The notes under the pieces are model-generated. The model was given only the letters and a program-made list of their open reading frames with translations. It had not been told where the DNA came from and searched no databases. A DNA stretch of 64,000 nt from Desertimonas flava (GTDB taxonomy: Bacteria; Actinomycetota; Acidimicrobiia; Acidimicrobiales; Ilumatobacteraceae): contig NZ_QKYK01000016.1 in the NCBI RefSeq assembly GCF_003426815.1, forward strand, positions 1-64,000, given 5' to 3'. The position numbers were made by a program, and so were the translations under genes. Position 1 is the first letter of the stretch. Each line of letters starts with the position of its first letter. Shown here piece after piece: positions 22,639 to 26,519 of this stretch.

Positions 22639-23391
22639 TCAGCGTTCGAACATGGCGACGGTGCGGAGGCGGCGTTCGATGTGGTGCTCGACGGCTCGGG
22701 TGGCCAGGACGCCGACCTCGTGGGTCGCCGGCGACTCCGGCGCCGCCAGCGCCTCGTTGAGGCGGCCGCCGAGGATGTCTCGCAGCAGTGCAAGGGCGGC
22801 GGCGCTGATGGGCCCGCCCGAGCGGCACGAGCGGCACAGCACCCCGCCCTCGTTGACGTCGAAGGCCACAAGCTCGATGCCGTGGTCCTCGGTCTCGCCG
22901 CAGCGGATGCAGGCGTCGAGCTCGGGGCGGAAGCCCTCCGCCGCCAGCGCCTTCCAGTAGAACGCCGGCACCACGAGCGCCCCGGCCCGCCCCGAGCCGA
23001 TGGTCCGCAGCACGCCGACCACCATGCGGTAGAGCTGGGGGTTGGGCTCGCGGTCCAGCGCCAACTGATCGGTCGCCTCGAGCACGGCGATGCCCTGCGA
23101 CGCCCGGTCGAGCGAGCCGAGCATCGGGGCCAGCGGCTCCACCGACTCGGCCTGGCTGACGATGTCGAGGGCATCGGGACTGTTCGAGCGGCTGCGGTAC
23201 ATCAGCACCCGGACGTGGCTCATCGGCTCGAGGCGGGCGCCGAACTTCGACATCGTCTTGCGCACGCCCTTGGCGACCGCTCGGACCTTGCCGTGATCCT
23301 CGGTGAGCAGCACGACGATGCGGTCGGCCTCACCGAGCTTGTAGGTGCGCAGCACCACCCCCGTGTCGCGATAGAGGTTGGAGCCGCTCAC
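22639..23391 (-). CDS. recO: DNA repair protein RecO
   Basis: This 250-residue protein helps load RecA onto SSB-coated DNA in RecF-pathway repair. It has an N-terminal OB fold (YRDTGVVLRTYKLGEADRIVVLLTEDHG), a helical domain, and a zinc site CIRCGE...CRSC at about residues 160-188. The start is the GTG at 23391, overlapping the stop of the degenerate cis-prenyltransferase gene as GTGA, so the two are coupled. Linkage of recO to uppS is common in actinobacteria and supports both calls. Confidence 0.95.
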   Translation of the reverse strand: MSGSNLYRDTGVVLRTYKLGEADRIVVLLTEDHGKVRAVAKGVRKTMSKFGARLEPMSHVRVLMYRSRSNSPDALDIVSQAESVEPLAPMLGSLDRASQGIAVLEATDQLALDREPNPQLYRMVVGVLRTIGSGRAGALVVPAFYWKALAAEGFRPELDACIRCGETEDHGIELVAFDVNEGGVLCRSCRSGGPISAAALALLRDILGGRLNEALAAPESPATHEVGVLATRAVEHHIERRLRTVAMFER

Positions 23392-23918
23392 GACGGGCTC
23401 AGGCCGCCGAAGCGGCGGTCTCGCCGGGCGAACGCCCGCAGGGCCTCGTCGAGCAGAGCACGGTCGAGCGACTCGAAAGGCCTCGCCGAGTAGACCAGCT
23501 CACCGTAGGCCAGCTCCCACACCAGCGAGGGCGGCAGATGGTCGGCCGGGCCGAGGATCACGATGAGGTCGGGTTCGCCGACCGCCGGTTCGTACAACGC
23601 CTCGGCAACGCGCTTCTCGTCGACCTCGCCACCACCGGGGATGCGGGCCACCGCCGAGGCGAAGGCCACCCGACCGTCCGCGGTGGAGTCGACGATGGCC
23701 ACCAGATCGTGGCCGACCTCCCGGGTCCAGCGGGTGCCCGGTCCACCCGACGGGGCACCGTAGGGGCGCATCGTGAGCCAGCGACCACCGGCCTCGGCGA
23801 CGCCGCGACCGAGCTCGTCGATCAGATCGTCCCAGCGAGCGGGCGTCATCGCCTCCCAGTCGCCCTCATCGCCGCCGACGATCATCACGTGGTCGAGCGA
23901 CGTACCCATCGCCTTCAT
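23388..23918 (-). CDS. degenerate cis-prenyltransferase paralogue (NgBR/Nus1-like), possible UppS partner
   Basis: A 176-residue protein. Its N-terminus LDHVMIVGGDEGDW and RWLTMRPYG align by eye with the HV..IMDGNGRW and GWLTVFGFS blocks of UppS, but the DGNGR catalytic loop is gone. The C-terminal part PDLIVILGPADHLPPSLVWELAYGELVYSARPF matches the UppS RTSGE..SNFLLWQ..YFTD region with the Arg, Ser and Glu ligands lost. Unlike the neighbouring UppS, it keeps the terminal RRDRRFGG with the RxG motif (Arg169-Gly171). In known heteromeric cis-prenyltransferases the non-catalytic subunit supplies this motif. I chose the ATG at 23918; 23909 is also possible. It overlaps recO by GTGA and diverges from uppS by 25 bases. 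Confidence 0.7.
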   Translation of the reverse strand: MKAMGTSLDHVMIVGGDEGDWEAMTPARWDDLIDELGRGVAEAGGRWLTMRPYGAPSGGPGTRWTREVGHDLVAIVDSTADGRVAFASAVARIPGGGEVDEKRVAEALYEPAVGEPDLIVILGPADHLPPSLVWELAYGELVYSARPFESLDRALLDEALRAFARRDRRFGGLSPS

Positions 23919-23929
23919 TCTCACACGCG

Positions 23930-23935
23930 TATCCT
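23930..23935 (+). promoter_or_regulatory. -10 box of uppS
   Basis: TATCCT eight bases before the GTG at 23944, fitting a leaderless uppS transcript. The divergent partner gene starts only 25 bases away, so its promoter must overlap. Confidence 0.45.
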
Positions 23936-23943
23936 CGATTCCG

Positions 23944-24624
23944 GTGAGCATTCACGTGGGTTGCATCATGGACGGCAACGGCCGCTGGGCGGAACGTCGT
24001 GGTGAGCCGCGTACGGCTGGGCACACCGAGGGCGAGGAGAACCTCGCCAGGCTGGTGCGGGTGGCGGTGAAACGCGACATCGGCTGGCTCACCGTGTTCG
24101 GCTTCTCGACCGAGAACTGGGTGCGGCCCCGATCGGAGGTGCGCCACATCGTCGGGCTGCACAAGAAGCTGTTCGGCCGCGTCGCCGAGCTCAACGAGCT
24201 CAACGTCCGCGTCCAGTGGATCGGCCGGCCGTTCGATTCGAAGTCTGCCCGCACCCCCGCCCTCGTGCAGCGGGCGATCCGCAAGGCGATCGCCGACACC
24301 CGTCGCAACACCGGGATGCTGCTCACCGTGGCCTTCGACTACGGCGCCAAGGCCGAACTGGTCGACGCCGTCAATCACCTGCGGGCCGAAGGTCGGTCGA
24401 TCACGCCGGACCACATCTCCGAGTCGCTCTACCTCCCGGAACTTCCGCCGGTCGACGTGCTGGTGCGCACGAGCGGCGAGGGCCGGCTCTCCAACTTCCT
24501 GCTCTGGCAGTCGACGGGCTCCCCCGTGTACTTCACCGACAAGACCTGGCCCGAGTTCGACGAGGCCGAGCTCGACGCGGCGCTGGCGCTGGTTCCCGCG
24601 CACGGGACCGCGCCCACGCGGTGA
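23944..24624 (+). CDS. uppS: cis-prenyltransferase (undecaprenyl/decaprenyl diphosphate synthase type), C-terminally short
   Basis: This 226-residue enzyme adds isopentenyl units in cis to make the polyprenyl carrier for envelope synthesis. Catalytic features are intact: HVGCIMDGNGRWA with Asp10, FGFSTENW, and RTSGEGRLSNFLLWQ with Arg175, Ser177 and Glu179. It is shorter than usual bacterial enzymes (about 240-250 residues). After WPEFDEAELDAALALV it ends PAHGTAPTR, lacking the conserved C-terminal RRFGG (RxG) motif. The usual QLAYSELYF is also changed to QSTGSPVYF. The missing tail is present in the divergent paralogue at 23388. The GTG at 23944 gives the family's N-terminus. Its TGA overlaps the helicase GTG. 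Confidence 0.9.
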   Translation: MSIHVGCIMDGNGRWAERRGEPRTAGHTEGEENLARLVRVAVKRDIGWLTVFGFSTENWVRPRSEVRHIVGLHKKLFGRVAELNELNVRVQWIGRPFDSKSARTPALVQRAIRKAIADTRRNTGMLLTVAFDYGAKAELVDAVNHLRAEGRSITPDHISESLYLPELPPVDVLVRTSGEGRLSNFLLWQSTGSPVYFTDKTWPEFDEAELDAALALVPAHGTAPTR

Positions 24625-26519
24625 CCAGCGCCTTCGACGTCGTCACCGCGGCCCTTCCCGGGGCCGAGGACCGGCCGGGCCAGCGTGAGATGGCGTCGCT
24701 GGTGGCTTCGGCGATCGCCGACGGCCGCCACCTCATCGTGCAGGCCGGCACCGGCACGGGCAAGACGCTGGCCTATCTCGTCCCGGCGATCGAGGCCGGC
24801 CGGCGCGTCGTGGTGGCCACAGCCACCAAGGCGCTCCAGGACCAGCTCGGGGCCAAGGATCTGCCGTTCCTCACCGAGGCCCTGCCGGGCGACTTCGAGT
24901 TCGCCGTGCTCAAGGGCCGCAGCAACTACGTCTGCCTCCAGCGGATCCGCGAGCTGAGCGCCGTCGACGATGCCGCCCAGACACAGCTCGAGCTGGGCGA
25001 CATGTCGCAGCGGGCCCGAGCTGAACTGAAGCGGATCACGGCGTGGATGGCCACCACCGACACCGGCGACCTCGCCGATCTGCCCTTCGCCCCGAGCGAG
25101 GCCACGACGCGGGCGATCACCGTCGGCAGCGACGAGTGCCCCGGCCGGGACCGCTGCCCGCTCGGGGAGTCGTGCTACGCCGAGGGCGCCCGGCGGCGCG
25201 CCCAGGCCGCCGACGTGGTCGTCGTCAACACCTATCTCTACGGTCTCGATGTCGCCAGCGAAGGAGCGATCCTCCCCGAGCACGACGTGGTGGTGTTCGA
25301 CGAGGCCCACGGCCTCGAGGACATCATGAGCGACACGGTCGGTGTGCAGATCGCACCGGGGCGCTTCGTCACGGTCGGGGCGGCCGTCCGCCGGATCCTC
25401 GCCGATCCGGCGATCGTCGCCGGCGTGCTCGACATCAGCGACAAGCTGCGCTCCGCCATCGCACCGTACGCCGGACAGCGGCTCCGCCTGCCGTACCCGG
25501 TCGAGATCAACGAGGTGCTGGTCGATGCCCGTGGCCGCCTCGACGCCGCCCACAAGGCGGTCACGGCGATCACCCCGGCCACGGACGACGCCAAGCAGCA
25601 GCGCCTCCGCGCCCAGCTGATGCTCGGACGTTCGATCGAGGGCATCGACATCGCCCTCGGCACCGCCGAGTCCGCTGCGGTCCCGGCACGGGATCAGTTC
25701 GTCGACTTCGTCTCCGGCACCGCCGAACACCCGCGCCTCGAGCTGGCGCCGCTCGACGTCGGCCCGGCGCTGCGTGACGGGGTGTGGAACCAGCGCACAG
25801 CGATCCTCACCAGCGCAACGATCCCGACGGGGCTCGCCGTCCGAGTCGGCCTCCCGCCCGGATCGGTGGACGAAGCCGACGTCGGGAGCCCCTTCGACTA
25901 CCCGGCCCACGGCCTCCTGTACTGCCCGGTGACGATGCCCGACCCGCGCGACGCAAGGTATCGCGACGCAGTGCACGAAGAGCTCGCCGCGCTCATCACG
26001 GCGGCCGGCGGGAGGACGCTCGCCCTGTTCACCAGCTGGAAGGCGATGGACGCCGCGGCCCAGGCGCTGAAGGATCGGGTGGACGTGCCGATCCTCACCC
26101 AGCGCGACCTCCCGAAGCCGGCGCTGGTGAAGGCGTTCGCCGCCGACGAGGCCACGTGCCTGTTCGCCACGGCGGGGTTCTTCCAGGGTGTCGACGTTCC
26201 CGGCTCCACACTCATCCAGGTGGTGATCGACCGCCTCCCGTTCCCCCGCCCCGACGATCCGCTGCTGTCGGCGCGGCGCGAGCTGCTGGGTCCGGCGGCG
26301 TTCTCCCAGATCGACATCCCCAGGGCATCGATGATGCTCGCCCAGGCTGCCGGCCGGCTGATCCGCACGGCGACCGATCGTGGCGTGGTCGCCGTCCTCG
26401 ACCGCCGCCTGGGCACGGCCCGCTACCGCTGGGACATCGTCAACGCCCTGCCGCCCATGCGCAGGACCCGTCACCGGGCCGACGTCGAGGCGTTCCTCCG
26501 CGAGATCACCGGCGACTGA
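24621..26519 (+). CDS. DinG/XPD-type ATP-dependent helicase with Fe-S cysteines
   Basis: A 632-residue superfamily 2 helicase. Motif I is QAGTGTGKTLAYL near residue 42 and motif II VVFDEAHGLED near 227. Four cysteines lie between them (YVCLQR near 104, then DECPGRDRCPLGESC at about 172-184), the layout of the XPD/DinG iron-sulfur domain. C-terminal motifs are VWNQRTAILTSATI, FTSWKAMDAA, FFQGVDVPG and QAAGRLIRT. Such enzymes unwind 5'-overhang DNA, R-loops or D-loops. It starts with GTG overlapping the uppS TGA (GTGA), so it is coupled to uppS, although no functional link is evident. Confidence 0.93.
   Translation: MTSAFDVVTAALPGAEDRPGQREMASLVASAIADGRHLIVQAGTGTGKTLAYLVPAIEAGRRVVVATATKALQDQLGAKDLPFLTEALPGDFEFAVLKGRSNYVCLQRIRELSAVDDAAQTQLELGDMSQRARAELKRITAWMATTDTGDLADLPFAPSEATTRAITVGSDECPGRDRCPLGESCYAEGARRRAQAADVVVVNTYLYGLDVASEGAILPEHDVVVFDEAHGLEDIMSDTVGVQIAPGRFVTVGAAVRRILADPAIVAGVLDISDKLRSAIAPYAGQRLRLPYPVEINEVLVDARGRLDAAHKAVTAITPATDDAKQQRLRAQLMLGRSIEGIDIALGTAESAAVPARDQFVDFVSGTAEHPRLELAPLDVGPALRDGVWNQRTAILTSATIPTGLAVRVGLPPGSVDEADVGSPFDYPAHGLLYCPVTMPDPRDARYRDAVHEELAALITAAGGRTLALFTSWKAMDAAAQALKDRVDVPILTQRDLPKPALVKAFAADEATCLFATAGFFQGVDVPGSTLIQVVIDRLPFPRPDDPLLSARRELLGPAAFSQIDIPRASMMLAQAAGRLIRTATDRGVVAVLDRRLGTARYRWDIVNALPPMRRTRHRADVEAFLREITGD

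Follow-up and report, generated by a model that had tools for sequence, protein, structure and literature searches.

A tail-less UppS and its tail-bearing relative form a candidate two-protein cis-prenyltransferase in the Ilumatobacteraceae

The locus described here lies in a 64,000-nucleotide stretch of the Desertimonas flava genome (family Ilumatobacteraceae, order Acidimicrobiales; contig NZ_QKYK01000016.1, positions 1 to 64,000), referred to below as the window. It carries two divergently transcribed genes: one encodes a UppS-type cis-prenyltransferase (UppS) and leads a gene for a DinG-like helicase, and the other encodes a smaller protein, here called Par, and leads recO (Table 1). UppS matched positions 1-208 of the 219 positions of profile PF01255 (E 1.1e-62, 212 bits, with a curated cut-off of 27 bits), and its C-terminus reads ...DAALALVPAHGTAPTR. 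Par matched positions 145-219 only (E 2.7e-7, 30.8 bits), also above the cut-off, and ends RRDRRFGGLSPS. An earlier note on this DNA had proposed that the two proteins form a heteromer, with UppS carrying the DGNGR and RTSGE loops but no C-terminal RxG tail, and Par lacking both loops but ending in RRDRRFGG. Both descriptions are borne out, the first by agreement of the motif positions with the invariant columns of the family and the second by the window sequence itself. No single protein in the window combines both catalytic loops with an RxG tail, as a homodimeric UppS does.

Table 1. Features of the uppS-Par locus, in window coordinates
Feature	Position	Strand	Remarks
UppS-type cis-prenyltransferase, predicted catalytic subunit	23944..24624	+	226 aa, GTG start, stop 24622-24624, without C-terminal RxG tail
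DGNGR loop of UppS	23971..23985	+	residues 10-14; Asp10 = E. coli D26
RTSGE loop of UppS	24466..24480	+	residues 175-179; Arg175 = E. coli R194
Par, putative non-catalytic subunit, pseudo-cis-prenyltransferase	23388..23951	-	187 aa from first ATG; probable start 23918 or 23909
RRDRRFGG (RxG tail) at Par C-terminus	23403..23426	-	proposed to complete the UppS active site
recO	22639..23391	-	downstream of Par, GTGA overlap; RecO_N + RecO_C; marks ancestral uppS position
DinG-like helicase	24621..26519	+	downstream of uppS, GTGA overlap; Helicase_C_2, DEAD; start by eye

Conservation was analysed in alignments of chosen rows from the family, one to five per genus, comprising 40 Par sequences (23 genera) and 35 UppS sequences; a cut UppS (L097) was left out. 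E. coli UppS served as the ruler for columns. A column was called conserved when its identity across 58 ordinary UppS rows reached 90%; some of these rows come in twos from a single genome, and some belong to further families of the phylum. Residues D26, N28, R30, R39, H43, F70, S71, N74, R77, R194, E198, R200 and S202 (E. coli numbering) were kept in all 35 family UppS. In the D26 column all 35 UppS carried D and all 40 Par carried G; in the R194 column R was found in all 35 UppS and V, I, A or L in all 40 Par; and S202 was absent from every Par. All 40 aligned Par sequences matched PF01255 at E up to 0.01, and their alignment contained 16 invariant columns, including R163, R165, R166, F167, G168 and G169.

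The 83 conserved columns were unevenly divided between the two proteins. Forty-two were kept only in UppS, including D26, N28, R30, R39, H43, N74, R77, R194, E198, S202 and N203, and nine only in Par (G61, E174, L191, Y211, E213, R239, R241, R242 and G244); 10 were kept in both and 22 fell into none of these classes. The claim that each protein holds what the other lost is thus upheld, and extends beyond the tail to Y211 and E213. In the family UppS, Y211 was replaced by Gly in 28/35 sequences and E213 by Lys, Ala or Arg in 29/35. Like the tail, Y211 and E213 may have a role across the dimer interface; the accessible literature yielded no report confirming a cross-subunit role for E213.

The distribution of the tail was then counted in open reading frames (ORFs) with a visible stop, scoring >230 bits (UppS) or >150 bits (Par), with 8 UppS and 7 Par ORFs or pieces excluded. 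The motif R.R[RK].G (RxR[RK]xG) occurred in none of 109 distinct family UppS C-termini (last 60 residues; 0/110 with 75 residues examined) and in 34/34 one-piece controls (the same with 75 residues). Thirty of these controls were the top-scoring UppS from the remaining families of the order, and four came from the Ilumatobacteraceae (genomes G156, G165, G199 and G252). The form R.RRFGG was present in all 101 distinct Par C-termini, and in 105/105 with 75 residues examined. A frameshift or read-through hiding the UppS tail was ruled out, as no RRFG followed the stop in any of three frames among 135 family UppS ORFs (duplicates and the window included); the loose form R.GG gave 12 matches in the same set. 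Where PF01255 matches ran past the stop, no tail was found 3' of it in G102, G218 and G230 (the three cases read of four, the fourth being G213).

The whole genome (6.22 Mb, 96.6% complete) contained no PF01255 match at E up to 0.001 besides UppS and Par. A second complete uppS, which the earlier note had named beforehand as contrary evidence, was therefore not found by this search. A match to the BacA/UppP phosphatase profile PF02673 was present, which fits a cell that recycles a polyprenyl carrier. Across the order, 143/148 genomes had a PF01255 match. In families other than the Ilumatobacteraceae the main match reached position 218-219 of the profile, apart from fragments cut short by contig ends in G094 and G128, and all five Ilumatobacteraceae genomes of this sample had two matches, the larger ending at 208-215. 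A survey of 200 genomes of the family gave two matches in 171, three in 4, one in 15 and none in 10; these counts were taken from the match table, and the second matches were read for part of the genomes. By genus, 24 carried both genes by the sequences read (g126 on two contigs, g137 with an interrupted Par), genera g124 and g133 had a one-piece UppS, and g119, represented by one genome that was 77% complete, had no match.

The 25 family genomes with one match or none were searched again with a Par profile. Par was found intact or contig-cut in G309, G177 and G171, as a contig-end fragment in G273, and broken in G242 and G296; no Par was found in the other 19, four of which are the genomes with a complete UppS. 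Many genomes are drafts, and some one-match rows reflect contig breaks: in G177, for instance, Par starts at contig base 5. In the five genomes with a tail-less UppS and no Par (G289, G340, G295, G316 and G263), UppS lay at a contig end. In the four genomes with a complete UppS (G156, G165, G199 and G252) the Par profile found only that UppS. A relative with both a tailed UppS and Par, another contrary result named beforehand, was likewise not encountered among those read, given the absence of tails from the family UppS and of Par from these four genomes.

A separate search of named contigs identified 348 loci encoding a relative, of which the 80 best that bear Par were read; these loci and those of the family survey overlap, some contigs being identical. 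Both genes were present in 73 of the 80 and divergent in all 73; the UppS C-terminus was visible in 70 of these, with a tail in none. Par ended RFGG in 80/80, one Par being in two pieces. Seven of the 80 loci had no UppS, and for three of these the rest of the genome was examined. The pair persisted without adjacency in G881, where the genes are ~9.6 kb apart, and in G882, where they are on separate contigs, and G883 yielded Par alone. In the other four, Par began at most 760 bases from the locus start, and one of these showed a cut UppS fragment. Ilumatobacter nonamiensis YM16-303 was among the named contigs with a matching locus. Six loci (L130, L135, L146, L152, L154 and L169) were titled Ferrithrix thermotolerans or Bifidobacterium breve, yet had an Ilumatobacteraceae-type Par locus, and are apparently mislabelled metagenome bins.

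In class- and phylum-wide searches, Par-profile scores of at least 165 bits occurred only in the Ilumatobacteraceae (22 of the 23 family genomes among 296 genomes, and 11/11 among 346, with overlap between the family genomes). All other matches, taken by score alone, reached at most 108.5 bits. In families f62, f65, f67 and f70 of the class, many genomes had two Par-profile matches at ordinary-UppS scores; the f65 genomes are ~1 Mb in size.

Par is under purifying selection. The ratio of non-synonymous to synonymous substitution rates (omega) was calculated for close pairs, defined as at least 80% identical with a synonymous distance (dS) above 0.1. Par had a median of 0.054 over 116 pairs and UppS one of 0.087 over 375 pairs, with no pair of either protein at 0.5 or above. 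Without the identity filter the medians rose to 0.511 (Par) and 0.235 (UppS), a rise attributed to synonymous saturation in distant pairs.

Structure prediction assigned both proteins to the same fold. The AlphaFold2 model of UppS had a mean predicted local distance difference test score (pLDDT) of 86.5, and its best Foldseek match in the PDB was S. pneumoniae UppS (5kh4_A; 42% identity, template modelling (TM) score 0.84). The 173-residue form of Par gave a mean pLDDT of 90.5 with a predicted cis-prenyltransferase fold; Foldseek returned E 3.7e-6, TM 0.63 and a root-mean-square deviation of 8.0, and the best 50 matches listed by VIA (Z 10.9-11.9) were all cis-prenyltransferases. Human DHDDS (7pb1_A) was among those listed, and NgBR/NUS1 chains were not among the 50. 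NgBR has an N-terminal membrane domain, and the window Par has ~20 residues ahead of its first strand. In the alignment, Par is gapped opposite the middle segment of UppS, a feature reminiscent of NgBR, which is reported to have no substrate-binding sites (PMC7573591). Both proteins thus qualify as cis-prenyltransferases by PF01255 score and predicted fold. Together they show the features of a DHDDS-NgBR-type enzyme, namely the catalytic Asp/Arg/Ser set and no RxG in UppS, and RxG without catalytic motifs in Par.

Likeness to NgBR does not extend to descent. Searches of the PDB gave DHDDS at 4e-41 with the UppS profile, and with the Par profile E. coli UppS at 3.1e-22 and human NUS1/NgBR, matched to its C-terminus, at 1.5e-5. 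As the Par profile is nearer to E. coli UppS than to NUS1, Par is, on sequence grounds, not an NgBR orthologue. With phmmer, the window Par found one-piece uppS products from the order's other families at 4e-15 to 7e-9, and family UppS at 2e-5 at best.

Gene order points to the origin of Par. In the controls, uppS and recO were co-oriented in 31/31 loci showing both, with dinG divergent in 12/12 showing all three. Par-recO stood opposite uppS-dinG in 50/50 Ilumatobacteraceae loci with all four genes (duplicates included). From this recO-side order, Par holds the ancestral uppS slot. In a tree of 93 rows (21 of the 40 Par, 18 of the 35 UppS and 54 of the 58 ordinary UppS), the Ilumatobacteraceae UppS formed one clade (100/100) within Acidimicrobiales UppS, beside family f59 (89/81). 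Par was likewise a single clade (100/100), with a long stem that the tree does not place securely. These patterns suggest that, within the Ilumatobacteraceae, the uppS next to recO would have lost its catalytic half and become Par, while the divergent copy next to dinG would have lost its tail and kept catalysis. The catalytic copy may be a local duplicate, or may have come from a relative such as f59.

In genus g133 (G165, G184 and G199; loci L264, L265, L266 and L267 2812-2878), dinG and recO have neither cis-prenyltransferase gene between them, and in G165 their start codons are separated by 65 bp. G165 and G199 encode a complete UppS at another site, with an RRRRKG or RRRRMG tail; the search of G184 (81% complete) gave no complete UppS. 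The genus offers a natural comparator, in which a one-piece enzyme possibly replaced the pair. Joint loss as a sign of mutual need was considered and dropped, since RecO+DinG trees left the placement of g124 and g133 relative to the origin of the pair unsettled (approximately unbiased test, p 0.063; 0.498 without six fast rows); 38 of 69 RecO loci were used. The one-piece UppS at L034, L035 and L036 formed their own long-stemmed clade (100/100) and ended RRRRKG, RRRRMG or KRRKGG, not RRFGG. G252 (L036) is assigned to genus g5, and the other g5 members read carry the pair.

From the residue partition, family-wide conservation, purifying selection, synteny and the absence of a further uppS, we consider it very likely that UppS and Par together form one heteromeric cis-prenyltransferase for the polyprenyl diphosphate carrier, like DHDDS-NgBR and separately arisen. 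The support is comparative, not physical. Physical association, crossing-over of the tail, mutual need and the product are what we infer from it, and the product is probably undecaprenyl diphosphate. UppS would bind farnesyl diphosphate and isopentenyl diphosphate and catalyse the reaction, providing the tunnel and all residues of its own half of the active site. Par, without chemistry of its own, would dock on the dimer face of UppS, and its RRDRRFGG would extend into the UppS site, closing it and helping to bind the diphosphates, in the way that one monomer's tail serves the other in homodimers and NgBR serves DHDDS. A fuller account, which we regard as likely, if a little less firmly, is that this is the first heteromeric cis-prenyltransferase to be found in bacteria and an independent replay of DHDDS-NgBR. 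A head-to-head uppS duplication, after which the two copies reciprocally lost the cis and trans halves of the site, would have produced an obligate two-protein form of an essential cell-wall enzyme, and loss of Y211 and E213 would lock out the UppS homodimer.

Several observations weigh against this interpretation. The partition is imperfect: E213 is kept in 3/35 family UppS, and R200 in 16/40 Par. One genome (G883) yielded only Par, and G289 and G340 showed UppS only, in both cases at contig ends. Par in G242 (L276) and G296 (L278) contains stops or a frame break beside an intact tail-less UppS, and an in-frame TAG interrupts Par in G169 (L088 650-1255; also L121). Assembly error is possible in all three, and Par in G296 lies at a contig end; if the breaks are real, UppS can manage without Par in G242 and G296. 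The window Par is on the longest branch (1.92) and has no close relative to give an omega of its own. As each subunit forms a single clade, the correlation between tail loss and Par goes back to a small number of evolutionary events. With the Par profile, DHDDS (2.2e-5) scores about like NUS1. Among characterised enzymes, M. mazei MM_0014 lacks RxG (its tail is TLGG) and is active as a homodimer (PMC8131916), and the canonical RxG is missing in yeast Nus1 (PMC7573591).

The strongest alternative is that UppS acts alone as a tail-less homodimer while Par has another job, such as isoprenoid binding or scaffolding. The activity of MM_0014 and the broken Par copies of G242 and G296 lend it some weight. 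We nevertheless judge it unlikely: conservation in Par peaks at the element that closes the active site, Y211, E213 and the tail are retained in Par where UppS lost them, and a tailed UppS and Par never occur together in the genomes read. Slightly less probable still is a heteromer in which Par serves mainly as a regulator, membrane anchor or chain-length setter and does not donate residues. NgBR carries a membrane domain and has been called an allosteric modulator (PMC7573591), but the strongest constraint in Par falls on the tail, the element that touches substrates in known structures, and UppS no longer has one.

That the pair was acquired whole, from a heteromeric enzyme of archaea or eukaryotes, is conceivable, as heteromers exist in archaea (MM_0618/MM_1083, PMC8131916) and eukaryotes. 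It appears very improbable given the position of UppS inside Acidimicrobiales UppS beside f59 (in trees of bacterial sequences), the location of Par in the ancestral uppS slot and the Par-profile scores that favour E. coli UppS over NUS1. Least credible is a functionless, decaying uppS duplicate, for although Par evolves fast, has long branches and is interrupted in G169, G242 and G296, its invariant columns across 23 genera speak against decay and the omega values of close pairs rule out a pseudogene for the family.

The layout of the locus bears on how the two proteins might be expressed. The longest ORFs of UppS and Par overlap by 8 bp in the window, and the start codons closest to the conserved domains are separated by 34 bp, where the median over 120 loci (with duplicates) is 74 bp. 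The earlier note had placed the starts 25 bp apart, which is correct if Par begins at its second ATG (23918) and incorrect for the longest ORFs. It had also taken this spacing to fit equal expression, a claim that does not stand: the genes sit on divergent transcripts, so equal expression is not implied. GTGA stop/start overlaps occur at 23388-23391 (Par-recO) and 24621-24624 (uppS-dinG), so that Par and uppS each come first in what seems to be a translationally coupled unit, the second gene being one for DNA repair.

The proposed arrangement most resembles DHDDS-NgBR and its yeast counterpart Rer2/Srt1-Nus1, in which a catalytic subunit is completed by the C-terminal RxG of a dead relative whose sequence likeness to cis-prenyltransferases is confined to its C-terminus (PMC7573591, PMC7839719). 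In the human enzyme the tail of NgBR crosses the interface and takes part in both DHDDS substrate sites, homodimers show the same transverse contacts, and the kcat of human DHDDS-NgBR is ~400-fold above that of the DHDDS homodimer (PMC7573591). Water links the RxG arginine to the Mg ion in several homodimers, and in some the glycine nitrogen touches the acceptor phosphate (PMC8131916). The pair described here differs from DHDDS-NgBR in being bacterial, in a Par nearer to bacterial UppS than to NgBR, in a UppS that ends near profile position 208 without the C-terminal extension of DHDDS, in a product that is likely the cell-wall carrier and not dolichol, and in its proposed origin by local duplication.

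Two-subunit enzymes are also found in archaea; A. fulgidus is said to have a heteromeric cis-prenyltransferase pair. M. mazei MM_0618/MM_1083 is a two-subunit prokaryotic cis-prenyltransferase for a glycosyl carrier lipid (PMC8131916). It belongs to another domain of life, and is likened to the present pair by description, not by sequence. Homodimeric UppS, such as those of E. coli and M. tuberculosis (Rv2361c), share the fold, the catalytic residues and an RxG tail acting across the dimer, whereas here the halves of the active site lie on two different proteins. HexA/HexB of M. luteus B-P 26 and HepS/HepT of B. subtilis have a fold different from that of cis-prenyltransferases. They are bacterial prenyl diphosphate synthases that consist of two subunits, one of them a helper (PMC7839719), but are trans-prenyltransferases, that is, E-type enzymes. 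According to one review, heteromeric cis-prenyltransferases are typical of eukaryotes and the bacterial ones are homodimers (PMC7839719), and searches of the open-licence PMC literature listed no example of a bacterial heteromer.

Because the pair has close one-piece relatives and consists of two small proteins, the evolution of an obligate heteromer from a homodimer would be directly testable in this system. If the interpretation is correct, a bacterial case would mean that the design of a catalytic plus a dead subunit has evolved more than once, and the Ilumatobacteraceae would possess an unusual two-protein form of a cell-wall target.

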